A DNA stretch of 64,000 bases from Desulfococcaceae bacterium (lineage in GTDB: Bacteria; Desulfobacterota; Desulfobacteria; Desulfobacterales; Desulfosalsimonadaceae). Position 1 is the stretch's first letter, and every line of letters begins with the position of its first letter. Below the pieces are notes generated by a model. It made no database searches, was not told the origin of the DNA, and saw nothing but the letters and a program-made list of their open reading frames with translations. Shown here one piece after another: positions 32,832-53,095 of this stretch. The translations under genes and the position numbers were made by a program. The stretch spans positions 62,001-126,000 of the forward strand of contig JAQYVU010000001.1 of NCBI GenBank assembly GCA_030145385.1. Reading direction: 5' to 3'.

Positions 32832-32864
32832 ACCCTGATTTGCTGCGAAGTATCAGATAATTAA

Positions 32865-32906
32865 CCCGCATTTGTATTATTAAGTGATACAAATGCGGGT
32901 TTTTTG
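32865..32906 (+). terminator. Rho-independent terminator of the VWA lipoprotein gene
   Basis: CCCGCATTTGTAT at 32865-32877 pairs perfectly with ATACAAATGCGGG at 32887-32899, followed by a run of T (32900-32905). It lies 34 bases after the stop at 32831. Confidence 0.93.
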
Positions 32907-32935
32907 TTGACATGACATCCTTGTTTTATTATGAG
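32907..32935 (+). promoter_or_regulatory. Candidate sigma-70 promoter of the HTH regulator operon
   Basis: TTGACA at 32907-32912 is a perfect -35 box; TATGAG at 32930-32935 stands 17 bases later as a fair -10. The -10 falls inside the left arm of the long palindrome, so a protein bound there would block it. No transcript data; based on sequence only. Confidence 0.5.
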
Positions 32936-32964
32936 TAGTTTTACTGCTCATAATAAAACAAGGA
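32918..32964 (+). promoter_or_regulatory. Long hairpin/palindrome covering the ribosome-binding site of the HTH regulator
   Basis: TCCTTGTTTTATTATGAG (32918-32935) is perfectly repeated in inverse at 32947-32964. The inner bases also pair (T-G wobble, then A-T, G-C, T-A) around a TTT loop, giving about 22 pairs in 47 bases. The right arm ends in AAGGA, the only ribosome-binding site for the ATG at 32968. In DNA it can be an operator; in RNA it would hide the start site. Confidence 0.8.
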
Positions 32965-32967
32965 ATC

Positions 32968-33510
32968 ATGAATAATTTATTTTCAGGTATTATTACCTCC
33001 AAAACACGTATCAAGCTCCTTATCAGGTTTTTTGTGAACCCTGATTCGCGTGCCTATCTTCGTGAGCTTTCAACTGAGTTTAATTTGTCTTCCAATTCCG
33101 TTCGGGAAGAACTGAATCAATTATCCCAATCAAACCTTTTGAAAAGTGAAAAACTCGGCAGGAAGATTTATTATCAGGCCAACCAGTCTCATCCGCTGTT
33201 TCCAGAGCTGAAATCCATGGTCAGCAAGTTTATGGGGCTTGATAAGGTCATTGACGGGCTGGTAAACCGACTGGGCGACCTTGAATCGGCTTATCTGATC
33301 GATGATTACGCAGAAGGCAAAGATACCGGTATTATCGATTTATTGCTGGTGGGTAATATAGACAGGTTTCATCTTGATGATTTGAGCAGGAAAACTGAAC
33401 GATATATCAATCGAAAAATCCGGACGCTTGTGTTGACCCGCAAAGAATTGATTGATTTTTTGCAAAATTATAGAAACAGGCCAATATTGCTTATCTGGGG
33501 GGCAGAATAA
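32968..33510 (+). CDS. Winged-helix regulator with a nucleotidyltransferase-like C-terminal domain
   Basis: A 180-residue protein. Residues 8-75 form an ArsR-like winged helix (SKTRIKLLIRFFVN, YLRELSTEFNLSSNSVREEL, SEKLGRKIYYQAN). Residues 85-175 resemble the fold of MNT-type nucleotidyltransferases (AYLIDDYAEGKDTGIIDLLL, RFHLDDLSRKTERYINRKI, LVLTRKELIDFL) but lack the GSxAxG and DxD catalytic signatures, so it is probably a sensor or dimerisation domain. Proteins of this type often stand at the head of polysaccharide loci (recalled). It is preceded by the long palindrome, suggesting autoregulation, and followed 74 bases later by the first glycosyltransferase of the right arm. Confidence 0.8.
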   Translation: MNNLFSGIITSKTRIKLLIRFFVNPDSRAYLRELSTEFNLSSNSVREELNQLSQSNLLKSEKLGRKIYYQANQSHPLFPELKSMVSKFMGLDKVIDGLVNRLGDLESAYLIDDYAEGKDTGIIDLLLVGNIDRFHLDDLSRKTERYINRKIRTLVLTRKELIDFLQNYRNRPILLIWGAE

Positions 33511-38578: not shown

Positions 38579-40140
38579 ATCCATGGCTGGAGCAGGTCCA
38601 TGCGACACTTCCCAGGGTTTTAGCCTTGTTTGATGTTGATCCGCTGAGTCCCACCCGGGGAATTGGTGACAGGTTCCACTGGGCCTGGAAGTTAATCGAT
38701 TTCGGGAATGCCACGTTTCAGGGTGCGGCCCATGGCCTGGCACGACTGGTTCATGCCGGTCTGCTTCCGGAATGGGTGCACGAGCAGAAGATAATTGAGA
38801 TTATTGATGCAATTTTTGACGGCACAAAAAAGCTGACATATCCGGATGGCAGTCTTGAAGAAGCCTTTCCGCATGAGCGGTCTTTTTGTGTAACAGCCCT
38901 GGTTGCCTATGATCTTTTATCATGTATCGATCTTCTATGTGAAAAGATCGATGAACAAAAGAGAGCAGAATATATTGAAATTGTAAGACCTTTAATTAGA
39001 TTCTTAAAAAAATCTGATGAAACGCATGGCGTTATATCAAATCACCTGGCTACAGCGGCGGCTGCTTTGATTAAGTGGCGTCAAATTTCACAAGAAAATG
39101 ATGTGAATCGTGGGCTTGAAATTTTGGAAAGAGTCTTTTCGCATCAGTCATCCGAAGGATGGTATCAGGAGTATGAAGGTGCTGATCCCGGCTATATGTC
39201 TCTGGCGATATGTTATCTTGCAGATATTTATCAAATGAATCCAACTGATAAATTGAGAGATTCTCTGAATAAAGCAGTCGGTTTTTTAACGTACTGTGCA
39301 CATCCTGATGGCTCGTTTGGCGGCCATTATGGCAGCCGGAATACCCGTTTTTATTATCCGGCGGGGATTGCAATGCTTGCAGCCAGTTTTGATAAAGCTG
39401 ATATGCTGCATGCGTTTATGCGTAAGTCTATAATGGATATGACTTGTGTTACCTTGCTGAGCATGGACGAACCAAATCTAATCCCCATGTTTAATGCCTA
39501 TGTCCGTGCCGCTCAAGTGGACAGTCTGGAAAAGTCGGATCTCTTAAGAAAGGATAATAATCTCCCATTTAACAGCATGGTACCGTTAGAAAAATATTTC
39601 AGTGATGCGGGTTTGCTGGTTGTTAATCGTCCTCATTATTATGCTTTGTTTTCATTGTTTAAAGGAGGCATCGGCTCTGTTTTTTACAAAGATGGTGATG
39701 TGCATCATGTTCAGGGGGCGGCATTAGTGAATGGGAAAAAACGATTATACTCTAATCAATTATATTGTTCAGATAACAAGATTATAATCGAAAAAGATTT
39801 TTTAGAAATAACTTCGGAATTTAATAAAATAAACAATTCATTGCTATTGCCCTGGCAGATGATTGTATTGCGTACACTTAATTTAACAATCATGCGTTTC
39901 AGATTTTTTTCTGATCTGATTAAAGTTATGTTGGTTAAGATGCTTATTACCGGCCATAAATCCTTAGGTGTTTTTAATAAAAGAAGAGTCGTATTTGGAG
40001 AAACTGTCGTTGTTGAAGATTCACTTGAAGGGCCTCTCAAAAACATTAATGAGCTAAAAATTTTAAATATTGACCAGCCTTTTCGTTCAATTCATATGGC
40101 CAGTTCCGGATATTGGCAAAGACAGGATACTTTAAAGTGA
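38575..40140 (+). CDS. Conserved-looking protein of unknown function, predicted helical (alpha/alpha) toroid
   Basis: 521 residues, no signal peptide. Residues 60-330 are rich in paired helices with motifs seen in glycan-processing toroids: FPHERSFCVTALVAYDLL, VISNHLATAAAALIKW, SSEGWYQEYEGADPGYMSLA, HPDGSFGGHYGSRNTRFYYP. Residues 360-520 look like a beta-rich tail (LLVVNRPHYYALFSLFKGG; VHHVQGAALVNGKKRLYSNQ), a layout resembling heparinase II/III-type lyases. No catalytic residue can be named, so the lyase idea is only structural analogy. Coupled by ATGA to the deacetylase-like gene and by GTGA to the aminotransferase gene that follows. Confidence 0.6.
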   Translation: MNPWLEQVHATLPRVLALFDVDPLSPTRGIGDRFHWAWKLIDFGNATFQGAAHGLARLVHAGLLPEWVHEQKIIEIIDAIFDGTKKLTYPDGSLEEAFPHERSFCVTALVAYDLLSCIDLLCEKIDEQKRAEYIEIVRPLIRFLKKSDETHGVISNHLATAAAALIKWRQISQENDVNRGLEILERVFSHQSSEGWYQEYEGADPGYMSLAICYLADIYQMNPTDKLRDSLNKAVGFLTYCAHPDGSFGGHYGSRNTRFYYPAGIAMLAASFDKADMLHAFMRKSIMDMTCVTLLSMDEPNLIPMFNAYVRAAQVDSLEKSDLLRKDNNLPFNSMVPLEKYFSDAGLLVVNRPHYYALFSLFKGGIGSVFYKDGDVHHVQGAALVNGKKRLYSNQLYCSDNKIIIEKDFLEITSEFNKINNSLLLPWQMIVLRTLNLTIMRFRFFSDLIKVMLVKMLITGHKSLGVFNKRRVVFGETVVVEDSLEGPLKNINELKILNIDQPFRSIHMASSGYWQRQDTLK

Positions 40141-41324
40141 TTCCACGTTTAAAACCTACACTGGGCTGGGCCGAACTCAAGGCGGCGTTCAGCCCTCCGG
40201 GCAAAGATGATGTCAGATTATTTGAAGAAGCCTTTGCAAAATTGATGGGCCAAAAATATGCGCTGGCGTTTCCATACGGCCGGACCGGTATGATACTTCT
40301 TTTTGAAGCGCTTGGTTTTCAGGATAAGGAAATTATTTGTCCGGCTTATACGTGCGTTGTTGTCCCGCATGCGATTGTTCTCAGCGGTAACCGGCCTGTT
40401 TTTGTAGATTGTGCCGCAGGTGAATTTAATATGGATCTTGATCAGGTGGAGTCTGTGATCAATGAGAACACCGGAGCGATCATCGCAACCTCTCTTTTTG
40501 GGTATCCGGTAAATTTGGATAAACTGGATGAAATAAAAAAAAAGCATCCCCATGTTCAGATTATTCAGGATTGCGCGCACAGTTTTGCTGCTGAATGGAA
40601 AGGCAGACCAGTTCAAAAAGAAGGCATTGCTGCAGTCTTTGGATTAAACATTAGCAAAATTCTGACATCAATTTTTGGGGGAATGATAACTACTGATGAT
40701 GAAGCGATGTTTCTTAAATTAAAGAATTTGCGTAATTCACGATTGAAAGCCCCTTCCTGGAAAAAAAGCGGTAAACGGTTGCTTTATTTATTAGCAGTTT
40801 ATCCAAGTTTTTGGGGGCCTGTTTACGGGTTGATTAATCGGCTTGAACGATCAGGTTTTCTTAATAGATTTGTTAAATATTATGATGAGACGAAAATCGA
40901 AATGCCTGAGGACTACCTTGAAGGACTATGTAATATAGAAGCGCGGGTTGGCTTAACAAATATTAAAAAGTATAAACAAATCATAACCAATCGGCGAGTT
41001 GCGGCATCACATTATTTTGATTTTATACTTGAGAATTCTGATTTTATTCTTCCCTTAAAAGTTAAAGGTGCAACTTATTCACATTTTGTCGTACAAGTGA
41101 AAAATAAAAACCACTGGTTACTTTCTACTATTGGCTTCGGCCTTCAACTTGGTTGGCTTATAGAATATTGTATCCCTGAGATGGAGGCTTATGGTGCTGC
41201 CAATCCAGGCGAATATCCGATTGCTTCAAAATATGCACTTAAAACTATAAATTTACCGGTCTGGGGAGGAGTGAAAGAAGCCAGAAAGGTTACCTCTCTT
41301 TTAGATAACGTATCAATGGGTTGA
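40137..41324 (+). CDS. DegT-family nucleotide-sugar aminotransferase-like protein
   Basis: Start chosen at GTG 40137 (VIPRLKPTLGW), which overlaps the previous stop as GTGA and has AGGA at 40124-40127. The fold markers are GRTGMILLFEALG, EIICPAYTCVVVPHAI, PVFVDCAAGEFNMDLDQVES, IIQDCAHSFAAEW (Asp that contacts PLP) and FGLNISKILTSIFGGM with the Schiff-base lysine at about residue 174. It belongs to a divergent DegT branch (QDCAHSF in place of EDAAQ). It probably makes an amino sugar, which the hexapeptide acyltransferase and the acyl ligase/carrier pair downstream could then acylate. Regiochemistry unknown. Confidence 0.85.
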   Translation: MIPRLKPTLGWAELKAAFSPPGKDDVRLFEEAFAKLMGQKYALAFPYGRTGMILLFEALGFQDKEIICPAYTCVVVPHAIVLSGNRPVFVDCAAGEFNMDLDQVESVINENTGAIIATSLFGYPVNLDKLDEIKKKHPHVQIIQDCAHSFAAEWKGRPVQKEGIAAVFGLNISKILTSIFGGMITTDDEAMFLKLKNLRNSRLKAPSWKKSGKRLLYLLAVYPSFWGPVYGLINRLERSGFLNRFVKYYDETKIEMPEDYLEGLCNIEARVGLTNIKKYKQIITNRRVAASHYFDFILENSDFILPLKVKGATYSHFVVQVKNKNHWLLSTIGFGLQLGWLIEYCIPEMEAYGAANPGEYPIASKYALKTINLPVWGGVKEARKVTSLLDNVSMG

Positions 41325-41371: not shown

Positions 41372-41971
41372 ATGAATAGGCCTAAAGAAAAAGGCAGTTT
41401 TTGGTATTATTTTTTTTGTAAAATTGGCTTTGAATTGCCACCCCAGTATAAAGATATCAAGATATCATTCGTGTTAATGAGTTTTATTAAAGACTATAAA
41501 AATAATTTTTTGGCGCAACTGGCAAAAAGAAGTTTTTTCTTAGGGAGTACCTTATCTTTGCACTGGACCAGGCAATTTTTTCACCGGTTACGAGGTTGTA
41601 CTATTGGTAAAAATACCAGAATAGCCGAAGATTGTATTATCGGGCTATACCATGCTGAAAAAATAACTATTGAGGATAATGTTGCTATTGCTGCCGGATG
41701 TATTTTATTGGAACACAAAAGAGATATCTCTCTGCTTAGATACGGTGGATCAATAATGAAATGTAATTATCTGGTTCAACCAATTTTATTGAAAAAGGGT
41801 TGTTTTATTGGAGTCGGTTCAATCATTATGCCTGGCGTAACAGTAGGTGAAGGTTCGATTGTTTCTCCGGGAAGCGTAGTGGCAAAAAAAGTCGCACCAT
41901 ATACAATTGTCCAGGGAAATCCAGCAAAAGAAATTTTTAAAATTCCTAAAACTGATGAAAATATAACATAG
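41372..41971 (+). CDS. Left-handed beta-helix acyltransferase
   Basis: 199 residues. After a 65-residue N-terminal helical part, hexapeptide repeats run to the end: CTIGKNTRIAEDCIIGLYHA, ITIEDNVAIAAGCILLEHKR, CFIGVGSIIMPGVTVGEGSI, VSPGSVVAKKVAPYTIVQGN, PAKEIFKIP. LEHKRD offers a histidine for catalysis where related enzymes have H(D/K). The family uses acetyl-CoA or acyl carrier protein as donor for O- or N-acylation of sugars. Its place directly before an acyl ligase and an acyl carrier protein makes carrier-bound acyl donors plausible (inference). It is preceded by a 47-base gap and followed by a 12-base gap. Confidence 0.85.
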   Translation: MNRPKEKGSFWYYFFCKIGFELPPQYKDIKISFVLMSFIKDYKNNFLAQLAKRSFFLGSTLSLHWTRQFFHRLRGCTIGKNTRIAEDCIIGLYHAEKITIEDNVAIAAGCILLEHKRDISLLRYGGSIMKCNYLVQPILLKKGCFIGVGSIIMPGVTVGEGSIVSPGSVVAKKVAPYTIVQGNPAKEIFKIPKTDENIT

Positions 41972-41982
41972 GATTTATTATT

Positions 41983-43434
41983 TTGGAACATTCAGAATTT
42001 ATAGGAGAAATCGAAAAAATATGTCTTCAAAACGCAGAAAGTATTTTTATTGAAGATATAACAATGAATAAGCAAATACGATATTTAGAGTTTTGGGAAG
42101 TAATCAACAATTATAAGAATACAGTTTTGAAAAAACTTTGCAGGCAAGATATTGTTCTTGTACCTCTGAAAAACGATATTGAATCTGTCTTTTTATTGTT
42201 TTCTGCATTCTTGGCCGGTGTTAAGCCTGTATTGGTCAAAAAAGAAGCATTTCATCGAGAATTTAAAAAAAATTCTGCTTATATGTTAACATCAAATATT
42301 ATATCATTTGAAAATAATGCGTTAACTATAAAAAAAAGTAAAACATATAGCTCGACCATTCCTTCACAGGTCGCTTATCTTGTTTTTACTTCCGGCTCCA
42401 CAGGCGTGCCTAAAGCAATTCAGATTTCTTATGAAAATTTAATTGTTGAAACGAGAAGTATGCTACGTGCATACAAATTAGAAAAACATGATACACACCT
42501 TTGTATTCTTCCCATAAACCATGCTTCCGGTTTATATAGAAACGTTTTAATGGCATTTTTTTCCGGTGCAAAAACAGTCTTGGTGAATAATTTTAATGTT
42601 AAGAAATTCTGGGACTTTATTGATAAATTTTCGATTAATTTTGTTCAAATTAATCCTACAATAATATCTTCACTTCTTCGGGAGTATGACGCAGAAAATT
42701 ATATAAAACCAAAATCCATAAAATTTATTGGAAGTGCCTCTGCTCCTCATTCCGAACATCTTGTTCGTGAATTTGAATCAAAATTCAAGATCCCATTATT
42801 GGTCGGCTATGGGATGACTGAGGCGACTTGTGGAATTACATTAAACAATGGCTCATTCTGTCAGAATGGTAGTGTTGGAAAGCCCATTGATATCTATGAA
42901 ATTAATATGTTTGACGAAGAAGACAGATTGATTCGTGAACCTTTTCAACAAGGTGAGGTCGTTGTGAAAGGGCCTGGGATAATGGCTGGCTACTTAACGA
43001 CAGATGATTCTGAAATCGATTATATTCGCCATGATTATAATATTCTTTATACCGGGGATTTGGGTTACAAAGATGACGATGGTTTTATTTATATTGCGGG
43101 GCGAAAAGACGATATCATAAAACGTGGAGGGTATCGTCTTAATATTTCTGAAATTGAAAAAGAGATATATTTTTTAGATTTTATAAATGAATGTGTTATT
43201 TTAGCCGTTCCAAATCAATGGCTTGGTAGTGATATCATCGGTTTTGTTGTATTAAAAGAAAATTCCAAAATAAATAGTCGTGGAATAATATCAAAACTTA
43301 AATCAATATTGCCTCCAGAGAAGATCCCTAGTGAATTTCTGATAATAGATAAAATTCCAAAAAACAATTCCAATAAAGTTAATAAAGATGAACTAATTAA
43401 TCTGTATAATATGAAAAAACAAAAGAGAGTGTAA
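41983..43434 (+). CDS. Acyl-adenylating ligase (ANL superfamily)
   Basis: 483 residues from TTG 41983 (AGGA at 41969-41972 upstream). Core motifs: LVFTSGSTGVPKAIQ (A3, 134-148), GYGMTEATCGITL (A5), YTGDLGYKDDDGFIYIAGRK (A7), DDIIKRGGYRLNISEIE (A8) and a C-terminal NSNKVNKDEL (A10 lysine). It should activate a carboxylic acid as acyl-AMP and load the carrier protein encoded 3 bases downstream. The small size and lack of condensation domains mean a stand-alone ligase, as in carrier-dependent sugar acylation systems. The acyl substrate cannot be read from the sequence. Confidence 0.88.
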   Translation: MEHSEFIGEIEKICLQNAESIFIEDITMNKQIRYLEFWEVINNYKNTVLKKLCRQDIVLVPLKNDIESVFLLFSAFLAGVKPVLVKKEAFHREFKKNSAYMLTSNIISFENNALTIKKSKTYSSTIPSQVAYLVFTSGSTGVPKAIQISYENLIVETRSMLRAYKLEKHDTHLCILPINHASGLYRNVLMAFFSGAKTVLVNNFNVKKFWDFIDKFSINFVQINPTIISSLLREYDAENYIKPKSIKFIGSASAPHSEHLVREFESKFKIPLLVGYGMTEATCGITLNNGSFCQNGSVGKPIDIYEINMFDEEDRLIREPFQQGEVVVKGPGIMAGYLTTDDSEIDYIRHDYNILYTGDLGYKDDDGFIYIAGRKDDIIKRGGYRLNISEIEKEIYFLDFINECVILAVPNQWLGSDIIGFVVLKENSKINSRGIISKLKSILPPEKIPSEFLIIDKIPKNNSNKVNKDELINLYNMKKQKRV

Positions 43435-43436
43435 AC

Positions 43437-43685
43437 ATGAAAAAAGAAGAAATCATTGAGATTTTAAATGACATTTTTTTGGATATTTTCGAATTAGAAA
43501 AATCTGTGCTCGATGAAACAGAAGATCTTTTTGAGATGGAGAATTGGGATTCACTGAATCAGGTGCGGTTAATTGCGACTGTCGAAAATGAATTCAATAT
43601 CAAGGTAACCGAGGCTGATATTAATAATTTCAAATCTTTCAGGACAATTGTTGACTTCATTTATTCAAAATTCGATTCAAAATAA
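43437..43685 (+). CDS. Acyl carrier protein
   Basis: 82 residues, acidic. The phosphopantetheine serine is Ser39 in ENWDSLNQVRLI, and helix III reads TEADINNFKSFRTIVDFIYS. It is 3 bases downstream of the ligase and 56 bases upstream of the flavoprotein, and clearly specialised rather than the fatty-acid AcpP, whose signature is DSLDTVEL. It needs a 4'-phosphopantetheinyl transferase encoded elsewhere. Confidence 0.92.
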   Translation: MKKEEIIEILNDIFLDIFELEKSVLDETEDLFEMENWDSLNQVRLIATVENEFNIKVTEADINNFKSFRTIVDFIYSKFDSK

Positions 43686-43741
43686 GAAAACTATTCATGT
43701 TAATTATAAATTAACTGAAATCTAAACGAGGTTCATAAAAT

Positions 43742-45142
43742 ATGAAACAACCTTTAATCCTTGGGGTCGCAGGGTCTATACGTTCAAGATTTAGGCATTT
43801 TGATAAGTTGAATGAATTTATCATGATTTCCAAAGATCATTTAGAGCTAAGTTCGAATATTGAATCTTCTTCTTATAAATTTTCGAATTCTGATATTGCA
43901 TTAGCTTTTGCGATGCTGAGTGTCAGGGCTAATAATATTAGTTTTAAAATAATTTCAATCTTAGAGTTATTTACTCAAAGAAAGAAATCAACTCCAACTA
44001 TTGTTGACGATGATTTGGTTCATATCAATAATATCCAGGATATCGATTCATTAAAGATCAACGAAAAAAAACTGAATGATTTTTTCCATCTACTTAGAAT
44101 ATCAAAAGGGATAGTTTTAAGTAGTCCGGTGTATTTTGGTGATCGTTCATCAATAGCAAATAAATTTATGCAGCTCACCAACAAAGAGCAGTTACTTAAA
44201 GATAAAGTATTTAGTATGATCGCCACTGGCGCAAAAAGAAACGGCGGGCAAGAAACAACTTGTATATATGGACTATTTGAGGCGCTATCGCAAGGAGCGG
44301 TCGCAGTGGGAAATGGCCCGGCAACCTCTCAATATGGCGGAACCGTTGTTGCAGGTGACCTACAAACTGCTTTAGAAGACAATTGGGGTATCGAAAGATG
44401 TATTGAACTCGGTCATCGTGTTTCAAGTACTGTAAAAGTTATAAACAATGGAATCGGAACAAATAATAAAAAAAGTAAAAGACTAAAGATAAAAATTATT
44501 ATAACCATGGATACGCCGGATAAATATTTTCATGGGATCGTAAAGGATTATTTTAACGAATTTTTTGAAGATAACGATTTTGAGATAATAGACTTAATTG
44601 ATTTTGATATATTCAGATGTGCGGCATGTAACATATGCCCATCTTATAAAAAAAGGAATACATCATCCGAGCATGAGTATTCCTGCAGTATACATCATAA
44701 AGACGACTCAATGCAGGAAATAGTCAGCCTATTAAAAAATAGCGATTGTTTAATTTTTGTTGGGGTCAATACGAAAAAGGATATTATTTATCGCTATCAG
44801 GCTTTTACCGAAAGAACACGTTTTATGCGACGAGATGACTTTCAATTAACGAATACACCTATCTTAAGTATGTATATCGATGAAGTCGGTTCCATTAACA
44901 ACACTTTACATAATCTTAAGATTTTAACATCATACATACGGCACAATACTATTCTTTTAAAACCCGTTAATATTATACTTGAGCGTGAAAAGATCATCTA
45001 TAAAGATAATTTCAATCAGTATTTACCGCTATTAAATTCAATTGCCAATGGCAGAGAAAACAGTCCGGCATCGTCTATCAGCTACAAGGCGACAGGTTAT
45101 TCCGATTCACGATTAAATGATACTTCAAGGATGCGAAGATAA
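43742..45142 (+). CDS. Two-domain flavodoxin-like oxidoreductase with a cysteine cluster
   Basis: 466 residues holding two flavodoxin-fold NAD(P)H:FMN-reductase-like domains in tandem. The first (1-235) has LGVAGSIRSRF, KGIVLSSPVYFGDRSSIANK (FMN-phosphate region, 122-141) and TGAKRNGGQETTCIYGLFEA. The second (248-440) has KIIITMDTPDKYFHGIVKDY, then RCAACNICPSYKK with Cys293, Cys296 and Cys299 and a further Cys near 314, as in iron-sulfur flavoproteins, and LIFVGVNTKKDII. It is not a usual polysaccharide enzyme. Its position after the carrier protein suggests it oxidises or reduces a carrier-bound acyl group or a sugar intermediate (inference). The start has no strong ribosome-binding site but ATG 43742 fits the family. 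Confidence 0.72.
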   Translation: MKQPLILGVAGSIRSRFRHFDKLNEFIMISKDHLELSSNIESSSYKFSNSDIALAFAMLSVRANNISFKIISILELFTQRKKSTPTIVDDDLVHINNIQDIDSLKINEKKLNDFFHLLRISKGIVLSSPVYFGDRSSIANKFMQLTNKEQLLKDKVFSMIATGAKRNGGQETTCIYGLFEALSQGAVAVGNGPATSQYGGTVVAGDLQTALEDNWGIERCIELGHRVSSTVKVINNGIGTNNKKSKRLKIKIIITMDTPDKYFHGIVKDYFNEFFEDNDFEIIDLIDFDIFRCAACNICPSYKKRNTSSEHEYSCSIHHKDDSMQEIVSLLKNSDCLIFVGVNTKKDIIYRYQAFTERTRFMRRDDFQLTNTPILSMYIDEVGSINNTLHNLKILTSYIRHNTILLKPVNIILEREKIIYKDNFNQYLPLLNSIANGRENSPASSISYKATGYSDSRLNDTSRMRR

Positions 45143-45223
45143 AAATTATAAAATGATATGCAAAAATATTATAGTATCAATGCATAGTCAAAATGAGAAT
45201 TTGAAAAGAACTGGAGATTAACT

Positions 45224-46009
45224 TTGTCGAATAATTTGAAAATTCGAAATATTTTACCTTATCCTATCTATAAGCGTTTGTTTGGAGACCGCCGAAAATA
45301 CAATCTTTATCCGGATAACATGGATAAAGATCTTGCTTTTTTTAAATCACAAAAGCTTGATTTTTATAATAATACTCAACAAAAAGGTGTTGGCGACCGA
45401 GTCTCTCGGATGGCTTATTCTGTTGTTAGGCGTGTGAATTTTGCAGGTAAGAAGGTACTTGAAATTGGACCGGGTGTTATTCGACATTTACAATATATAA
45501 ACGAAAAACCGAAAGAGTATGCTTTATGTGATATAAACCAAGATTTTCTTGAAATCGCTGCTAAGCAATTAAAAAATTCAAAAATTCCTTTTAAAAAAAT
45601 ATTAAACTGTGAATCTGAGGAGCATCGTCTCCCATTTGAAGATAAATCCATTGATATCATCATATCCTTCAATTCTTTAGAACACCTCTATCCACTTGAC
45701 AGTTATCTTTTGGAAATGAAGCGTGTGCTCTCTAATTCGGGATTAATTGTCGGTGGTATCCCGTGTGAGGGAGGATTAGCATGGGGAATAGGGCGGTTTT
45801 TAACTACAAGAAGGTATGTGCATAAAAAGTACGGGATCAATTACGATAAAATTATTTGTTGGCAGCATCCAAACTTCGCAGATTTCATTCTTCAAAGATT
45901 AGATAACCATTTCAATAGGAAATATCTTAAGCGGTCACCCTTTTTTTGGTTACCGATGGACCTTAATTTGGTGACAAGTTATATATATGAAAAATCAGAA
46001 ATAAAATGA
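45224..46009 (+). CDS. Class I SAM-dependent methyltransferase
   Basis: 261 residues from TTG 45224 (GGAG at 45213-45216). KKVLEIGPGVIRHLQYI is motif I, YALCDINQDFLEIAAKQL motif II, DIIISFNSLEHLYPLDSYLL the LEH block and SNSGLIVGGIPCEGGLAWG follows. The C-terminal part (CWQHPNFADFILQRLDNHF) recurs in methyltransferases of O-antigen loci. It overlaps the flippase gene by ATGA. It may methylate the acyl group or a sugar of the repeat unit made by the upstream cassette. Confidence 0.85.
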   Translation: MSNNLKIRNILPYPIYKRLFGDRRKYNLYPDNMDKDLAFFKSQKLDFYNNTQQKGVGDRVSRMAYSVVRRVNFAGKKVLEIGPGVIRHLQYINEKPKEYALCDINQDFLEIAAKQLKNSKIPFKKILNCESEEHRLPFEDKSIDIIISFNSLEHLYPLDSYLLEMKRVLSNSGLIVGGIPCEGGLAWGIGRFLTTRRYVHKKYGINYDKIICWQHPNFADFILQRLDNHFNRKYLKRSPFFWLPMDLNLVTSYIYEKSEIK

Positions 46010-47463
46010 TATCCCGTTTTAAGCAGCTCGGTAAAGATTCCATTATTTATGGCATTGGTGGTGCAGCTGCAAAGGCTGTTGGTTTTTTCCTGCTGCCTGT
46101 TTACACCCGCATTTTTTCTCCTGCTGAGTTCGGTACGATAGAAATGCTTGTAGTGATTAATGGGTTTCTGGGTACTTTTTTAGTGATGGGCATGGATTCC
46201 GCCCAAAGTTTTTTTTTCTTTGAGCAAAAAAAAGGGGGACAAAGGGCGCAGGCAAATTTAGTGTCTGCTGTATTGCAATGGCGTCTTGCATGGGGCGGGA
46301 CCATTGTTCTTTTTGGGACACTATCAGCTCCGCTGCTAAATAAGTTTTTTTTCAATGGGAACCTTTCATGGGAATATTTTGCGATTGCCTTTAGCGCAGC
46401 TCTTTTTGGTCAAGTCCAGAATCAAAGCGCTCAAGTTTATCGTCTGCTTTATAAGCCTTTGGGATATATGCTTGTCACATTAGGGCAGACATTGCTGTCT
46501 GCAGCATTGATTGTGTTACTAGTTGTTGTTTTTAACTTCGGAATTATCGGATATTTCTGTGGCATGTTGGTCGGGGCAGGTGTTGCATCAATCTGCGGCT
46601 GGTACTCTTTACGTGATTATATCCATCTTAAAGTTTGGCATAAGGAGTGGTGGCCAAAGCTGATAACGTTTGGTGCTCCGTTCTTGCCGGTAGGTCTTGC
46701 AATGTATGTATTAAGGACTTCAGACCGGTGGTTTATTAATTATTATCACGGGGAGGCAGCACTTGGGATTTATGCAATTGGCGCGAAATTTGCCTCGATT
46801 ATATTAATTGCAGTCGAGACTTTTAGACTCGCATGGTGGCCTCTTGCCATGGATTCCATGCACAGCGATGACGGACCTGATCTTTTTCGGGCGATCGGTA
46901 GGCTTTATCTCGGTTTAGGTGTCGCAGGGGTAGTCTTCATAACAACTCTATCCCCCATCCTTGTACGATTGTTTACCGCGCCTGCTTATCATAGTGCCTA
47001 CCCAGTTGTAGGGATTTTGGCCTGGTATGTGATATTTTATGGCTTTATTCTTATCGCGTCAGCGGGAGTTTGGATAAAGAAAAAGACCATGATTGTTCCT
47101 TTATTATCCGGAATTGCAGCCCTTTTAAATATTTTTCTTGATTATTTATTTGTGCCGAAGTTTGGAGGTTTTGGTGCTGCGATAGCTACATCCATATCTT
47201 TTTTTATTTGGGTAGTCCTGGCTTTAATTATCAGCGAAAAGCTGTGGTATGTTGGGCATAATTTATGGATTCTTTTTGCTGAAGTGATGGTAGGTGTTAT
47301 TGCATGTACTTATATATTATATGGTTATTCGCATAAGGGCGAGGTCTGGTCGGTATGGTTATGCTGTTTAGTGGCTATTTTTATTTTAGTTCTATTGTCA
47401 GTGAGTAAGACGCACCGATTACTTGCATGGCAAAAGATTACTATTAATAGAATAAGGTTATAA
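46006..47463 (+). CDS. wzx: Wzx-type oligosaccharide flippase
   Basis: 485 residues with about twelve to fourteen membrane helices and a typical Wzx/RfbX start: GKDSIIYGIGGAAAKAVGFF, LPVYTRIFSPAEFGTIEML. Further marks are FLPVGLAMYVLRTSDRWFIN and LFVPKFGGFGAAIATSISFF (typical of the polysaccharide transport/MOP superfamily). It should flip undecaprenyl-pyrophosphate-linked repeat units to the periplasm, placing this locus in the Wzx/Wzy-dependent class. Start ATG overlaps the preceding methyltransferase stop. Confidence 0.92.
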   Translation: MISRFKQLGKDSIIYGIGGAAAKAVGFFLLPVYTRIFSPAEFGTIEMLVVINGFLGTFLVMGMDSAQSFFFFEQKKGGQRAQANLVSAVLQWRLAWGGTIVLFGTLSAPLLNKFFFNGNLSWEYFAIAFSAALFGQVQNQSAQVYRLLYKPLGYMLVTLGQTLLSAALIVLLVVVFNFGIIGYFCGMLVGAGVASICGWYSLRDYIHLKVWHKEWWPKLITFGAPFLPVGLAMYVLRTSDRWFINYYHGEAALGIYAIGAKFASIILIAVETFRLAWWPLAMDSMHSDDGPDLFRAIGRLYLGLGVAGVVFITTLSPILVRLFTAPAYHSAYPVVGILAWYVIFYGFILIASAGVWIKKKTMIVPLLSGIAALLNIFLDYLFVPKFGGFGAAIATSISFFIWVVLALIISEKLWYVGHNLWILFAEVMVGVIACTYILYGYSHKGEVWSVWLCCLVAIFILVLLSVSKTHRLLAWQKITINRIRL

Positions 47464-47465
47464 AT

Positions 47466-49073
47466 ATGTGGCACCAAGAAGAAATTTATCGAAAATATAA
47501 TAAATTAATTGAAAAAGCCGGTTATAAAGGGGTTCTGGCCATTTTCTTTTATCCGGCGATCACTTTTTTTGTCACTCCTATACAACTTGTACGATCTTTG
47601 TGGAATTGCCGGATTCTGCTTGAAGGAAAATGGCAAGATTATAATGGATTTAATCCAAGAACAGGCATTAATAATCTTTTTTATTGGACCCGGGCACTTA
47701 ATTTTTATAAGTACGGTAGGTCGGGAACAAGCCCCACCCTTGGCATTGGGGAAACTTTTTTGGGCAATCTCTGGTTTTATACTTTATTCTCTTTATATGC
47801 CTACAGATTCTTTGCACCTGTTGTTCCTCTTTGCGGGCTTTTTGGGTGGTGGATTTCTCATTTGGTATATTTTGATCAGGTTTGTGTGATTTCTCTCTGG
47901 GGGGTCGCTGTTATGATGCTATCTCTTTTTTCAACTACTTTTTATGCTAATACATTTGTGATTCAAAATTATAACGCCCTTGGCTGGCTGTTTATGCCTG
48001 TCGGGCTTTACGGTTGGCTGACAGGGAACTGGTACCTTGCAGCCCTTGCATGGTTTGGGGCTTGTTTTAGTTCTTTTACCATTGTATTTTTAGCATGTAT
48101 TTTGTCGGTTTTTATTTCAATATCAACTTTTTCATTTTTGCCTGTATTAACTACCATTCCTGCTGGTTTAAAAATATTAACCCATTTCATACCGTTAATT
48201 AGAAATGGAAAAGGGGCTTTGCTGAAAAGTGTTTATTCTTTGGCTATCTCTCTTGGTATGGCAAATAGGAATGTAAAATATAGAAGACTAAGTTTTAAAT
48301 TTGATCTGCAGTTATTTTATTATCTTTTTATTTATATTCAGTTTGCAGTTATTTTATTCTTTTTTGAGCGGAGTGTTCCCTGGTTATTGGTAACTTCAAT
48401 AATTATTTTTCTTGTAAATAGGCTAATTGCACGCTTTGCTGACGATCAGACAATTTTTATGTTAGTCTTTAGTGTGGCAACCGCTTTAATGATGATTGTG
48501 CAAAATAACAGCCCTTTTTTGCTATTTTCGTATTGGATTTTGGTATCTCCAATGCCTCTTTTAGTTCAAATGCCACGAACATATTTTGCGATTGTCCCAG
48601 TTTTTAAGCCATTTTATGTTCACCCCATAATAACAGAAATGAGAAAGTTTTTATCTCCGGTTTCCAAAGGCCAACGAGTACTTATGGCTTTTAATGATCC
48701 GCATGGTATTTATAGTAATATTTTTGATGGTTACAGGGTTATTTTAGAAGCGCCGCTATATGTAGCAGCTTGTAAAGAAATCCATTTTATGCCGGATTTT
48801 TGGGGAAAAACACAACTAAATTATGAAGGCGCTCCTGATTTCTGGGGTAGAAGTGTTGACGATGTCAAAAGACAACTGGAAGCATGGAATGCTGATTATG
48901 CTGTGATCTACCAGGACAGTGGTACTGAGATTGATTCAAAGTGGGAAGAAGCAGGTTTTGAGATTTTATCATTTTTTTCATGGTCAATCTTTGACCAAGA
49001 CTTTGGAGATAGCAGGCCATATGATGGGCCTACACCCGACTGGTGGTTGCTTAGATACAAATTTATAAATTAA
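47466..49073 (+). CDS. Polytopic membrane protein, candidate polymerase or GT-C enzyme
   Basis: 535 residues with roughly ten membrane helices over 20-390 and a soluble C-terminal domain from about 400 (GQRVLMAFNDPHGIYSNIFD; WNADYAVIYQDSGTEIDSKW). The first loop contains LEGKWQDYNGFNPRTGINNL and a later helix FVIQNYNALGWLFMPVGLYG. No named family is recognised. It starts 3 bases after the flippase, the usual place for an O-antigen polymerase (Wzy), but the C-terminal globular domain resembles GT-C proteins more. Either way it probably acts on the periplasmic side. Nothing else nearby is a better Wzy candidate. Confidence 0.55.
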   Translation: MWHQEEIYRKYNKLIEKAGYKGVLAIFFYPAITFFVTPIQLVRSLWNCRILLEGKWQDYNGFNPRTGINNLFYWTRALNFYKYGRSGTSPTLGIGETFLGNLWFYTLFSLYAYRFFAPVVPLCGLFGWWISHLVYFDQVCVISLWGVAVMMLSLFSTTFYANTFVIQNYNALGWLFMPVGLYGWLTGNWYLAALAWFGACFSSFTIVFLACILSVFISISTFSFLPVLTTIPAGLKILTHFIPLIRNGKGALLKSVYSLAISLGMANRNVKYRRLSFKFDLQLFYYLFIYIQFAVILFFFERSVPWLLVTSIIIFLVNRLIARFADDQTIFMLVFSVATALMMIVQNNSPFLLFSYWILVSPMPLLVQMPRTYFAIVPVFKPFYVHPIITEMRKFLSPVSKGQRVLMAFNDPHGIYSNIFDGYRVILEAPLYVAACKEIHFMPDFWGKTQLNYEGAPDFWGRSVDDVKRQLEAWNADYAVIYQDSGTEIDSKWEEAGFEILSFFSWSIFDQDFGDSRPYDGPTPDWWLLRYKFIN

Positions 49074-49116
49074 AAGGGGCAAGGGTGCGGTTCTGTAAGA
49101 AAAAATTTCAGGATGT

Positions 49117-50349
49117 TTGGGGGGAAAGAAAATTGTTTTGAAACAGAATATTAAAAATCCAAAAATCGCGTATATTAATTTTTTTAAATATACCGCTCCG
49201 AATATTGAGAATAAATTATTGGCTATGGCCGAGGGCGCAAGGCGAGCCGGGATCACAAATATTGACTTTATCAATATAAATGGTGAAAAAAACGACGCGT
49301 CAGGACTGGTTCGATATGTTCGCTTCCCATACAATTATTTACCCATCAAATATTATTATTTTTTTTTAGACCGTTATCAACTCATCGAACGCAGTCTGAA
49401 TCTGGAAAAATATGATTACATCATTTTAAGGTATTGTAATGGAGATCCGTCAGGGGGCAGGTTTTTTAAAAAATATAATATTATTTCAGAACATCACACC
49501 CTGGAAGTCCCGGAATATCAATCCCATCTTCAGAGCAATCTTCCTGTCTACGATAAAATTGCAAGAGGATTCAGATTAAAACTTGAACAAGCGAATGGCC
49601 CGAAAATGCTTCAAAAAGCTAAGGGCATTATCGGGGTTACAAATGAAATCATTGAATATGAATTAAGTCGAATCAGTGATAACGTTCCAACGATAACTAT
49701 TCCAAATGGTATAACGGTTGAAAAAGTATCCAAAACCGGATTCAAAAAATTTGACGGTAAATGTCTGGACATTGTTATTGTCGCCAGTAAACCATCTCCC
49801 TGGCATGGAGTGGATCGGTTAGTTCGATCGATTGATGATTACAAAGGATGTGTGAACATTAATTTGCATATTATCGGGGATGTCAGAAAATCAGACGTCA
49901 TTTCAGTTTCAAATGAACATTGCAAAATCATATGCCATGGCTATAAATCTGATAATGACCTTGATGACATATTAAAAAATTCAAATATTGGTATCAGCAC
50001 ATTGGAGTTATACACGAAAAGGATGAACGAGGCTTGTTCATTAAAAACGCGTGAATACACGGCAAGGGGCTTGCCTTATGTTCTGGCCTATGATGATCCG
50101 GATTTACAGCAGGTTGATAAGAATAAGCAATTTTTTTTGAAATTTCCCAATGACAATAGCTTGATCGATTTTCAAGCGGTAATTCATTTTGCCGAAAACA
50201 TAAGCAAAAAAAAAGATCTGGCTGAATATATGAGAGATTATGCTTTAAAGTATATGGACTGGAGCGTTAAGATGAAACAATATATTAACTTTGTTCAATC
50301 TGTCGATCAGTTGAATTTGTTACAGTCAAGTAGGAAGATTAATCAATGA
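49117..50349 (+). CDS. GT4-type glycosyltransferase, paralogue of 13166-14359
   Basis: Up to 410 residues. TTG 49117 gives full length; TTG 49138 (just before KQNIKNPKIAYINF) lies at a better distance from the GGGGGG/AAAG ribosome-binding stretch at 49119-49127. GT-B fold with IISEHHTLEVPEYQSHLQ, GIIGVTNEIIEYELSR, TIPNGITVEKV, VIVASKPSPWHGVDRLV, HIIGDVRKSD and TREYTARGLPYVLAYDDPD. The wording is shared with the minus-strand gene at 13166-14359, showing duplication. It is followed immediately by the 2-epimerase gene (overlap at 50346-50349). Confidence 0.83.
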   Translation: MGGKKIVLKQNIKNPKIAYINFFKYTAPNIENKLLAMAEGARRAGITNIDFININGEKNDASGLVRYVRFPYNYLPIKYYYFFLDRYQLIERSLNLEKYDYIILRYCNGDPSGGRFFKKYNIISEHHTLEVPEYQSHLQSNLPVYDKIARGFRLKLEQANGPKMLQKAKGIIGVTNEIIEYELSRISDNVPTITIPNGITVEKVSKTGFKKFDGKCLDIVIVASKPSPWHGVDRLVRSIDDYKGCVNINLHIIGDVRKSDVISVSNEHCKIICHGYKSDNDLDDILKNSNIGISTLELYTKRMNEACSLKTREYTARGLPYVLAYDDPDLQQVDKNKQFFLKFPNDNSLIDFQAVIHFAENISKKKDLAEYMRDYALKYMDWSVKMKQYINFVQSVDQLNLLQSSRKINQ

Positions 50350-51428
50350 AACTCATAACAATAGTTGGCGCACGACCGCAATTTGTCAAAGCAGCTATGG
50401 TAAGCCGGGCAATACAGAAATATAATAAAAGGTGTCCTGATAAAATGGTGACGGAAATTATTGTACATACCGGTCAGCATTTTGATCATGCGATGAGTGA
50501 CGTTTTTTTTGAACAGTTGGAAATTCCTTATCCTGATATAAATCTCAACATTAATTCCTGCAGTCATGGTGAAATGACCGGCAGGATGCTCATAGAACTT
50601 GAAAAAATATATGCTGAGCATAAACCGGACAGGGTTCTTGTGTATGGAGATACCAATTCAACACTGGCCGGCGCCCTTGCGGCCGCAAAACTTCATATTC
50701 CGGTTGCACATGTTGAAGCTGGTTTGAGAAGTTTTAATCAGAAAATGCCGGAAGAAATCAACCGGGTACTGACCGATCATATGTCCAATATGCTTTTTTG
50801 CCCTACCGAGACATCAATTAAAAATCTTGAAAATGAAGGATTGAAACAAAAAGCTTATCTGGTTGGTGATGTGATGTATGATTCGATCCTTTATTATAGC
50901 GAGATGGCGAAAAAACAGAGTCATATTTTGTCTGAACTTGAACTAAAACCCGGTAATTACATTCTCGGGACATTACACCGAGCGGAAAATACGGATGATC
51001 CTTCCAAACTTAAATCCATTTGTCATGCTTTATGTGATCTTTGTGGAAAAGGAAAAACAATTGTTGTTCCATTGCATCCCCGGACTCGTAATAAGTTAGA
51101 AGAAAATAAAATTGATACTACGGGAATTCGGTTCATTGATCCGGTGGCTTATCTGGATATGTTGATGCTGGAACGTTCAGCGGCAACTGTATTAACTGAT
51201 TCCGGCGGAATGCAGAAAGAGGCCTATTGGCTGGGTGTGCCATGTATAACGCTTCGAGAAGAGACGGAGTGGGCAGAAACATGTGATTTAGGGTGGAATG
51301 TCCTGGTTGGTGCAAATAAAGGACAAATTATTCAGGCAGTAGCAAATATTAAAACCGGAAAAGCCGGAGAGAACGTATATGGGGACGGGAATGCTGCGAG
51401 GAAAATTGTAAACCTAATATCAGAGTAA
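50346..51428 (+). CDS. wbpI: UDP-GlcNAc 2-epimerase family, WbpI/WlbD type
   Basis: A 360-residue non-hydrolysing epimerase. Active-site segments are complete: GARPQFVKAA, HTGQHFDHAMSDVFFEQL, VYGDTNSTLAGALAAAKLHI, VAHVEAGLRSFNQKMPEEIN, LHRAENTDDP, VPLHPRTR, LTDSGGMQKEAYWLGVPCIT and LREETEWAE. The phrases DVMYDS and EETEWAE and the RSFNQKMPEEINR wording favour the WbpI/WlbD branch, which converts UDP-GlcNAc3NAcA to UDP-ManNAc3NAcA, over plain WecB. WbpB and WbpD homologues at 58169 and 59347 support this. Ordinary UDP-ManNAc synthesis cannot be excluded. Confidence 0.82.
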   Translation: MKLITIVGARPQFVKAAMVSRAIQKYNKRCPDKMVTEIIVHTGQHFDHAMSDVFFEQLEIPYPDINLNINSCSHGEMTGRMLIELEKIYAEHKPDRVLVYGDTNSTLAGALAAAKLHIPVAHVEAGLRSFNQKMPEEINRVLTDHMSNMLFCPTETSIKNLENEGLKQKAYLVGDVMYDSILYYSEMAKKQSHILSELELKPGNYILGTLHRAENTDDPSKLKSICHALCDLCGKGKTIVVPLHPRTRNKLEENKIDTTGIRFIDPVAYLDMLMLERSAATVLTDSGGMQKEAYWLGVPCITLREETEWAETCDLGWNVLVGANKGQIIQAVANIKTGKAGENVYGDGNAARKIVNLISE

Positions 51429-51754
51429 TACATGACAGAAGGTTTGCTTGCCTTTTAATCTTATTCAAGCTATTTTTCAATTAATTTGAATGTTTACCAA
51501 TATTCTGCGGCCTTGATGAAAAGGAAATTTTATAAATGATCCAGAATTATGAGGATTATTTGGTTTACAATGAAGCTGACAGAATTTCTTTGAATAAAAG
51601 GAAAGCTGTTTTTTCGCTGCTATATGAATAATCTGGTTTAACCGTTGCTCTTAGATTTCAAACTGATTGGAATCAGATTTAATTCAAGGGATGATTATCG
51701 CTTAATCAAAACCAAATTCTGTTAATGACATTAAAAAAGAGGTAGTGAGTGATG
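51429..51754 (+). other. Intergenic stretch with a possible acetyltransferase scrap
   Basis: No intact gene. A short frame at 51536-51631 reads MIQNYEDYLVYNEADRISL, recalling the N-terminus of serine-acetyltransferase-like proteins (.DYL.Y.EADRIAL), then stops. It may be a gene scrap; evidence is thin. Confidence 0.3.
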
Positions 51755-51946
51755 ATGTCTGAAAATATAGATATCCGTTGGGAACAGCGATTTGGAAATT
51801 ATAAATAAGCATTAAGGCAATTGCAGAAATTTATTGATAAAGGTGAATTGTCAGAATTGGAAAACCAAGGGCTTGTTAAAGCATGTGATTACACATATGA
51901 ACTTGCCTGGAATACCCTAAAGGATTTCCTTGAATTTCAAAGTTGA
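51755..51946 (+). pseudogene. HI0074/HEPN-type nucleotidyltransferase partner, broken
   Basis: The frame reads MSENIDIRWEQRFGNYK, then TAA (51806-51808), then ALRQLQKFIDKGELSELENQ, GLVKACDYTYELAWNTLKDF and LEFQS before a TGA. This matches the first half of the HI0074 family (nucleotidyltransferase substrate-binding, HEPN-like; DIRW.QRF.NF..AL..L...... EQGLI.AFEYTYELAWN.LKD). An internal stop and loss of the C-terminal half make it a pseudogene. Its usual partner, an MNT nucleotidyltransferase, is not recognisable nearby. It probably marks a lost toxin-antitoxin-like pair. Confidence 0.85.
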
Positions 51947-51967
51947 TAGATCGGAAAAAAAGAGACG

Positions 51968-53095
51968 ATGAAGATCATTAATGTTGTGGGTGCGCGGCCG
52001 AATTTTATGAAAATAGCGCCGATCGTTGAGGCGATGAATGCTCATTCGGATAAGATCCAACACCTTCTTGTACATACCGGGCAGCATTATGATAATCAGA
52101 TGAGCCAGTCTTTTTTTGATGATCTGGGCATATCCAAACCGGATGTGAATCTGGGGGTAGGGTCCGGTTCCCATGCCGAACAGACCGCTCAGATTATGGT
52201 GGCATTTGAAAAAATCTGTTTAAAAGAAAAGCCGGATCTGGTTGTTGTGGTGGGGGATGTGAATTCAACCATGGCCTGCACCATTACAGCAAAAAAGTTG
52301 GGGATTAAAGTGGCGCATGTGGAAGCCGGATTGCGTTCACGGGACATGAGCATGCCGGAAGAGATCAACCGGCTTTGTACTGATGTTTTGTGTGATTATC
52401 TGTTTGCCACCGATCATTTTGCCATTGAAAATCTGATGAATGAAGGGGTGTCCAAAGATCGTATTTTTTTTGTGGGCAATGTGATGATCGATACGCTGTA
52501 TCGGTTTAAGGATAAGGCGGAAAAGCAGAATATGCCTCAAAAACTTGGATTGCAGCCGCGTCAGTATGCCACCATTACGCTTCATCGGCCATCTAATGTT
52601 GATGATCCGGAGATTTTAAGCGGAATTCTGGAAGCATTCTCACAGATTGCCCGCGATATTCCGTTAATTTTTCCGCTTCATCCCCGGACAAAAAAAAATG
52701 CTGAAATTTTTGGTTTGTCGCATTATTTTTCAAACAGTTTTGAGAAAGGTCTTATCCGGGTGATGGAACCCATGGGATATCTGGAATTTTTAAGTCTGAA
52801 CATGCATGCGAAAATGGTGTTGACAGACAGCGGCGGACTTCAGGAGGAAACAACGATTCTGGGGGTCCCCTGTGTAACGATCCGGCCCAACACGGAAAGA
52901 CCTATTACCTGCGAAGTGGGAACAAATTATATGGTCGGCAATGATCCTCAAAAAATTCTTGAAACAGCGGCAAAAATTATGAACGGTGTGCAGATTAAGG
53001 GGGGAATCCCGGAAAAATGGGACGGCAAAGCTGCTCAGCGGATTGTTGAATATTTGTTGAAAACGAAACAAATCAGTCAATCGGAAATGCGGTGA
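51968..53095 (+). CDS. wecB: UDP-N-acetylglucosamine 2-epimerase (WecB type)
   Basis: A 375-residue second epimerase of the same fold: GARPNFMKIAPIVEAM, HTGQHYDNQMSQSFFDDLGI, VVGDVNSTMACTITAKKLGI, HVEAGLRSRDMSMPEEINRL, VGNVMIDTL, TLHRPSNVDDPE, LHPRTKKN, LTDSGGLQEETTILGVPCVT and NTERPITCEVGTN. The FVGNVMIDTL and NTERPIT wording is that of classic UDP-GlcNAc/UDP-ManNAc epimerases, distinct from the copy at 50346. Its ribosome-binding site GAGACG is modest. Its codon use looks more GC-rich than the preceding cassette, suggesting a different history. It overlaps the DUF354 gene at its end. Confidence 0.87.
   Translation: MKIINVVGARPNFMKIAPIVEAMNAHSDKIQHLLVHTGQHYDNQMSQSFFDDLGISKPDVNLGVGSGSHAEQTAQIMVAFEKICLKEKPDLVVVVGDVNSTMACTITAKKLGIKVAHVEAGLRSRDMSMPEEINRLCTDVLCDYLFATDHFAIENLMNEGVSKDRIFFVGNVMIDTLYRFKDKAEKQNMPQKLGLQPRQYATITLHRPSNVDDPEILSGILEAFSQIARDIPLIFPLHPRTKKNAEIFGLSHYFSNSFEKGLIRVMEPMGYLEFLSLNMHAKMVLTDSGGLQEETTILGVPCVTIRPNTERPITCEVGTNYMVGNDPQKILETAAKIMNGVQIKGGIPEKWDGKAAQRIVEYLLKTKQISQSEMR

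Follow-up and report, generated by a model that had tools for sequence, protein, structure and literature searches.

This work concerns a block of five genes in a 64,000-nt stretch of DNA from a Desulfococcaceae bacterium (hereafter the window, i.e. the whole stretch, to which all coordinates refer). The block (positions 41372-46009) lies in a surface-polysaccharide locus and codes for a hexapeptide-repeat acyltransferase, an acyl-adenylating ligase of the ANL type, an acyl carrier protein, a flavoprotein with two flavodoxin-like domains in tandem, and a methyltransferase. That it holds an acyl-tailoring cassette is well supported. We also consider it reasonably probable that the block is a horizontally acquired cassette of this kind, whose flavoprotein acts on the acid independently of the carrier. 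The original prediction, made from the sequence of the window alone, had the acid modified on the carrier. At other loci, enzymes of this kind have an ATP-grasp ligase as their partner instead, which is why we propose that its substrate is probably a carrier-independent form of the acid.

Two partner sets around one flavoprotein family

Homologues of the flavoprotein were found at 78 loci in a scan of genome contigs and at 7 in a scan of viral contigs (numbered L below). The 85 flavoproteins counted are these loci minus L102, a 46-aa match without a recovered open reading frame, plus the window; near-identical loci (e.g. L086/L087, L106/L107 and L095/L101) are counted separately. Unless otherwise stated, the counts refer to genes within 5 kb of these flavoproteins. 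The neighbouring genes were called with a simple script and some are uncertain, above all in loci of high guanine-plus-cytosine (GC) content.

Two recurrent sets of partners are observed, which are rarely mixed within this distance: either a ligase, a carrier and an acyltransferase, or an enolase-superfamily enzyme and an ATP-grasp ligase. ATP-grasp genes are present at 41/85 loci, enolase-superfamily genes at 37/85, ANL ligases at 26/85 and carriers at 24/85, the same 24 loci remaining when carriers are counted with a profile free of fused-ligase sequence. MBOAT proteins occur at 17 loci, an unannotated MBOAT partner of about 375 aa at 16, DegT aminotransferases at 16, and NeuB-like and hexapeptide proteins at 13 each. 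The label ATP-grasp joins four clusters, one of which (9 loci) has a representative without a Pfam match, resembling carbamoyl phosphate synthase in NCBIfam only below the cut-off; the NeuB, PIG-L and cytidylyltransferase clusters were labelled by eye, except where the label is based on Pfam.

In the initial counts, the carrier co-occurred with neither enolase-superfamily nor ATP-grasp genes, and enolase-superfamily and ligase genes were found together at two loci (L058 and L074). At L058, AMP-binding, GNAT and PP-binding domains are fused in one 816-aa protein, so that a carrier domain adjoins the enolase-superfamily gene and the flavoprotein; at L059 and L062, which are enolase/ATP-grasp loci, a carrier gene lies about 6.4 kb from the flavoprotein. 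The separation of the partner sets is thus strong, but not absolute. The carrier gene of L040, missed by the gene caller and found afterwards, comes on top of the 24.

Partner genes lie within 1.3 kb of the flavoprotein at 69/85 loci (E 1e-3), against 0/17 loci of paralogues of its N-terminal half only (about 1.5 kb, E 1e-5), a comparison with unequal E limits and with control loci taken only from the window's relatives. No carrier was found with the clean profile at either control set, i.e. these 17 loci and 18 loci of unrelated ligases, nor was any flavoprotein found at the 18 ligase loci.

In a quick tree of 81 rows (L046, L064, L087 and L107 were left out), which gave warnings of long branches, like contexts tend to cluster, with some mixing: 9 changes are needed for the carrier/ligase label, compared with 24.0 in shuffles, and 10 for the enolase/ATP-grasp label, compared with 27.2. 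Without the 13 rows that lack any partner, 5 changes remain, so that more than one swap of partner sets is probable. In this tree the window falls together with L025 and L026, two carrier-type loci with an MBOAT protein.

The ligase and carrier genes of the cassette have kin beside other flavoproteins. The window ligase (motifs LPINHASG, IGSASAPH and GYGMTEATCG) belongs to a subtype, with HASG or HASA, SASAP and TEATCG-like motifs, that is common to the window, L039, L040, L058 and L098. It shares 39% identity over 480 aa with the ligase of L040 (342 bits) and 37% with that of L039 (290 bits); these loci belong to two phyla other than that of the window, and their ligase genes overlap the flavoprotein genes by 4 bp (L040) and 8 bp (L039). 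In 146 relatives, with no more than 10 candidates scored in each genome, the best other ligase reaches 183 bits; the best plasmid ligase reaches 191 bits (best of 8 listed among 12 records). With a profile of the five ligases, which includes the window ligase itself, the latter scores 708 bits and any other in 297 genomes of the phylum at most about 318 (at most 5 candidates scored per genome). At E 1e-4, the window carrier matches the carriers of L039 and L040 and no others among the loci. Since the kin of the ligase and carrier stand beside other flavoproteins, yet the window flavoprotein is nearest to that of L025, the cassette looks mosaic. Ligase, carrier and acyltransferase are inherited together, as seen from the ligase and carrier kin beside flavoproteins and from the fusion of all three in L058. 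L098 combines AMP-binding and GNAT domains with a tail that looks carrier-like by eye and is not called by Pfam; the link is weak, since the ligase gene is on the opposite strand, some 4.6 kb away from the flavoprotein. The loci of other genomes bear out ligase, carrier, acyltransferase and flavoprotein as a recurrent cassette. For the methyltransferase, which had been counted as a member, no similar open reading frame was found in the other flavoprotein loci at E 1e-4, and it is tied to the block by its base composition only.

The acyltransferases vary between loci: hexapeptide proteins (window and L030), MBOAT, GNAT and AAC(3)-like proteins are found. The latter occur within 2 kb at L039, L040, L083 and L094, and also at L074, which is an enolase/ATP-grasp locus; the member tested is below the model cut-off. 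Of the neighbours of the MBOAT protein (about 375 aa), one was tested and matched nothing in Pfam or NCBIfam; to call this family DltD-like would be a guess from its position. At L030, in another genome, a DegT-cluster gene lies upstream and the acyltransferase is LpxD-like, below the model cut-off. L052:5738-7573 codes for a cytidylyltransferase fused to an ATP-grasp domain, which links the ATP-grasp partner to CMP-sugar-type pathways. A family of about 280 aa, whose tested member has no Pfam or NCBIfam match, adjoins the ATP-grasp gene or is one gene away from it at L089:7061-7906 and five other loci.

The family is rare but widely scattered. In the phylum of the window, 3/395 genomes contain it, the window's own included (E 1e-30, at most three candidates scored per genome); seven whole-searched genomes of other loci have one copy each, and no match was found in plasmids and named phages at E 1e-5. 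According to record titles, many of them of metagenome bins, the hosts include Desulfobacterales, Pseudodesulfovibrio, Bdellovibrionales, Omnitrophota, Planctomycetota, alpha-, beta- and gammaproteobacterial groups, Nitrospirae, Flavobacteriales, Elusimicrobia, Verrucomicrobia, KSB1, Spirochaetia, Acidobacteria, Nitrospinia and Parcubacteria. Among the named isolates with a homologue are Marinomonas sp. MED121 (L070), of the carrier type, and Roseivirga sp. E12 (L082), of the ATP-grasp type. Seven contigs of viral collections (L103-L109) also carry one, with an ATP-grasp gene within 5 kb in six (not L108) and a PIG-L-like gene in five. Four records of Pelagibacteraceae (L067, L069, L090 and L094) have the flavoprotein and a carrier gene within 5 kb, which is unexpected in such streamlined bacteria.

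Fold and invariant cysteines of the flavoprotein

The original prediction of two flavodoxin-like domains agrees with an AlphaFold2 model of the whole 466-aa protein (mean predicted local distance difference test, pLDDT, 91.1; predicted template modelling score, pTM, 0.91), and both halves have structural matches. The N-half is closest to structures of the quinone reductases WrbA/PnpB (Z about 20, root-mean-square deviation (rmsd) 2.3-2.7, 164-168 residues aligned). When modelled by itself, the C-half (pLDDT 90.9) is also flavodoxin-like, with 1sqs as the best match (Z 15.0, rmsd 3.6, 191 residues aligned); absence from the structure match lists was not used to exclude any fold family. Searching the sequences of solved structures directly yielded three matches, all to WrbA (E 0.02-0.13). 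The N-half contains GGQE, which we take to be the flavin-site motif of WrbA/PnpB. The solved WrbA/PnpB structures, unlike the window protein, are of shorter, one-domain chains, and the NCBIfam quinone reductase model NF002999 is far from matched (16.0 bits for a cut-off of 141). The NCBIfam match of the C-half to a cobalt-precorrin methyltransferase (26.9 bits, cut-off 360) and the Pfam matches to EutB and UL128 were judged to be due to chance.

The three cysteines of the C-x2-C-x2-C cluster noted in the original prediction are invariant in the alignment of 85/85 homologues, and so are P300 and a fourth cysteine, C315, which had gone unnoticed. D322, E357, R358, R360 and R363 of the C-half (ERxRxxR) are likewise invariant in all 85. 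The scan patterns were two N-half motifs, so that the conservation of the N-half is biased; the C-half entered the selection only via tblastn confirmation and a whole-length profile filter, and the cysteine motif was not in the scan patterns. Alignments A2 and A3 contain 74 rows, 11 of the 85 being left out. Between G224 and C293 no position reaches 85% conservation, which means that the expected second flavin-phosphate site is not conserved; from this we infer one flavin mononucleotide (FMN) and one cluster per chain. The protein would be a fused FMN/[4Fe-4S] oxidoreductase, with FMN in the WrbA-like half and the cluster in the cysteine half.

Iron-sulfur flavoproteins have a flavodoxin-like fold and a compact four-cysteine motif, with one flavodoxin-like domain per chain. 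The window protein shares the fold, and the C-x2-C-x2-C...C motif is present in 85/85 homologues; in contrast, the window protein appears from its model to fuse two such domains, only the second having the motif. The profile of the C-half also matches flavone reductase (FLR, 7d38) at E 2.6e-5 over about 60 of 310 residues in the cysteine region. The similarity is weak and local; the flavodoxin-like fold is common to both, and the four cysteines align with cysteines of FLR.

Layout and base composition of the block

The five genes form one run directly before a flippase gene, as originally described: all are open reading frames on one strand, separated from the hexapeptide gene to the flippase by 11, 2, 56, 81 and -4 bp, and the Pfam scores of the block genes, the flippase and the DegT enzyme each exceed the curated cut-off (Table 1).

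Table 1. Features of the block and its flanking genes in the window
Feature	Position	Strand	Support
DegT/DnrJ/EryC1-type aminotransferase, upstream of the block, outside the low-GC part	40113..41324	+	Pfam DegT 151.8 bits
Hexapeptide-repeat acyltransferase, 199 aa; candidate soluble carrier-to-sugar transferase	41372..41971	+	Pfam Hexapep 51.9 bits; GC 34%
ANL acyl-adenylating ligase, "beta" subtype, 483 aa, TTG start	41983..43434	+	AMP-binding 157.4, AMP-binding_C 32.2 bits
Acyl carrier protein, 82 aa, ...NWDSL...	43437..43685	+	PP-binding 34.2 bits
Codon of carrier attachment residue Ser39 (in WDSL)	43551-43553	+	
Tandem flavoprotein, 466 aa	43742..45142	+	FMN_red 40.2 bits, residues 48-173 only
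Flavoprotein N-terminal WrbA-like FMN_red domain, residues ~1-240; C-terminal flavodoxin-like four-cysteine domain, ~244-466			
Codons of C293-x2-C296-x2-C299-P ... C315, predicted Fe-S (iron-sulfur) ligands	44618..44686	+	85/85 homologues
Class I S-adenosylmethionine (SAM) methyltransferase, 261 aa, TTG start	45224..46009	+	Methyltransf_11 54.2 bits
Wzx-type polysaccharide flippase, follows the block	46006..47463	+	Polysacc_synt 63.9 bits

The block has a GC content of 32.6%, compared with a mean of 38.9% for the window. None of 594 equal-sized windows (100-bp steps over the 64 kb) is as low, the minimum (32.64%, start 41301) falling on the block itself. In 17 further stretches of the genome, none of 1658 overlapping windows is as low either (mean 45.9%, minimum 36.0%). 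GC is 30-34% in the methyltransferase gene and the four genes of the cassette, against 40.1% in the DegT gene and 41.8% in the flippase gene. The low-GC interval, a feature absent from the original prediction, agrees with the boundaries given there for the block. As no other stretch of this size in the window has so low a GC content, we read the block as probably imported by horizontal transfer.

Elsewhere in the window, two genes labelled WecB-like by eye stand in near tandem at 50346-53095, with 539 bp between them. Before the polysaccharide locus, at 29241-33510, are a gene for a 1196-aa protein and one for a 180-aa regulator-like protein (winged-helix by eye); relatives of both are also found in the L030/L024 locus of another genome.

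Proposed chemistry, alternatives and known systems

The ligase would adenylate a carboxylic acid and load it on Ser39 of the carrier. FDxS is the core motif of amino-acid-activating domains, whose aspartate binds the amine; this aspartate is absent from the core motif in 25/26 aligned ligases near flavoproteins (the exception being L074, with FDLS), which suggests that the acid is probably not an alpha-amino acid. The hexapeptide enzyme would then use the acyl group to decorate a sugar, which may be an amino sugar, and the flippase would export the decorated unit afterwards. The upstream DegT enzyme is a possible source of an amino-sugar acceptor, as had been suggested; DegT genes are found at 16/85 loci. 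The flavoprotein may make or adjust the acid before coupling, most likely by a two-electron change next to the carboxyl, for which the reduction of an alpha,beta-unsaturated acid is our leading guess.

The alternative of the original prediction, that the flavoprotein acts on the acid as a thioester on the carrier, is in our opinion rather unlikely. A carrier is indeed present at 24/85 loci, in addition to L040 and the fused protein of L058, and a protein matching the methylmalonyl-CoA epimerase model (two above the NCBIfam cut-off) is found at three carrier-type loci, L030, L033 and L037, which points to thioester chemistry. On the other hand, the 41 ATP-grasp loci never have a carrier within 5 kb, and of the 37 enolase-superfamily loci only L058 does. 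Enzymes of the enolase superfamily act on free carboxylates. The partner keeps its active-site residues K145, K147, D176, E202, D227, K249 and K251 in 37/37 loci and is similar to enzymes of the MR/MLE type, among them o-succinylbenzoate synthases and dipeptide epimerases, from which proton removal beside a free carboxylate is predicted; the epimerase-like protein of the three carrier-type loci would carry out such a step on a thioester. The original prediction had itself held that conservation of flavoprotein and ligase without the carrier would speak against it; as regards the flavoprotein, such conservation is found and argues against the on-carrier step, but not against the cassette. The idea of an o-succinylbenzoate pathway, based on an enolase-superfamily gene with a MenC_N match and a MenE-like ligase, was dropped: the two genes are together at only 2/85 loci.

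That the substrate of the flavoprotein is the sugar, or the acyl group once coupled to it, seems improbable. Homologues do occur in polysaccharide and nonulosonate-type loci (NeuB-like 13/85 by eye, DegT 16/85), and L052 has the cytidylyltransferase-ATP-grasp fusion, but NeuB-like and DegT genes are each rarer than the acid-coupling genes. We give still less credit to the block making a small secreted metabolite: a ligase, a carrier and a redox enzyme are also the grammar of small-molecule clusters, but this block is flanked by the genes of a DegT aminotransferase and a flippase within a locus of the polysaccharide type, and L030 has both its DegT-cluster gene and its LpxD-like acyltransferase. 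A general quinone or stress reductase present by chance is hardly credible, despite the WrbA fold of the N-half, given the partner genes at 69/85 homologues compared with 0/17 N-half paralogues, and the ERxRxxR of the C-half, invariant along with the cysteines.

Several points nevertheless weigh against the carrier-independent step in an imported cassette that we favor. The connection between flavoprotein and acid comes from gene neighbourhood alone, and the control for this neighbourhood has the inequalities given above. At 13/85 loci there is no enolase, ATP-grasp, carrier, ligase or MBOAT gene (one of these, L101, does have a ligase, missed by the gene caller). The window hexapeptide enzyme has no close counterpart, the first nine matches listed having 26-32% identity over stretches longer than 100 aa, or 54% over 48 aa. 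Two genes past the flippase (47466-50349) are also fairly AT-rich (36.4 and 35.3% GC), so that the downstream border of the low-GC stretch is not perfectly sharp. Last, FLR is an FMN ene-reductase (PMC7862272), and that paper makes no mention of iron-sulfur, Fe-S or cysteine, so that FLR gives no support for the cluster itself.

Surface decoration by a ligase, a carrier and an acyltransferase is already known from the Dlt and Alm systems, as described in PMC3783018. DltABCD decorates a surface polymer by means of an acyltransferase and a small carrier charged by an ANL ligase; AlmEFG similarly uses a ligase, a carrier and an acyltransferase to put glycine on Vibrio lipid A, a surface glycolipid (the roles of AlmE and AlmF in that paper are the reverse of those usually given). 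The window likewise has a carrier with a phosphopantetheine serine beside an ANL ligase, and an MBOAT-cluster protein accompanies 17/85 flavoproteins. Unlike in Dlt, the nine proteins encoded between the start of the DegT gene and 50349 include no MBOAT protein, the ligase has LPINHASG instead of FDxS, and a redox enzyme is added. AlmEFG differs in its amino acid cargo and type of acyltransferase, and we know of no flavoprotein in it. In the viosamine islands of Pseudomonas flagellin, an aminotransferase is combined with a carrier-bound acyl group that is put on an amino sugar; there, unlike in the window, the acyl group comes from fatty-acid-type enzymes, and to our knowledge there is no tandem flavoprotein. 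The original prediction knew of no polysaccharide system with a tandem flavodoxin/Fe-S protein; in agreement with this, no description of the cassette, or of the tandem flavoprotein with exchangeable partner sets, was found in the open-access literature, most subscription papers lying outside this scope.

We tentatively extend these ideas to the whole family, although we would not yet bet on this. The tandem FMN/Fe-S proteins may define a pathway that supplies surface glycans with a single type of acyl building block, with two interchangeable couplings: a ligase and a carrier with a hexapeptide, MBOAT, AAC(3)-like or GNAT acyltransferase, or an ATP-grasp ligase. The alpha carbon would be handled by the enolase-superfamily enzyme on the free acid or, at a few loci, by the methylmalonyl-CoA-epimerase-like enzyme on a thioester. 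If so, this rare but widely scattered enzyme family would have an unrecognised role in bacterial surface chemistry, and its two alternative coupling machineries would be a natural experiment for finding the acid that they share. The homologues in named isolates of both types make this reading testable.

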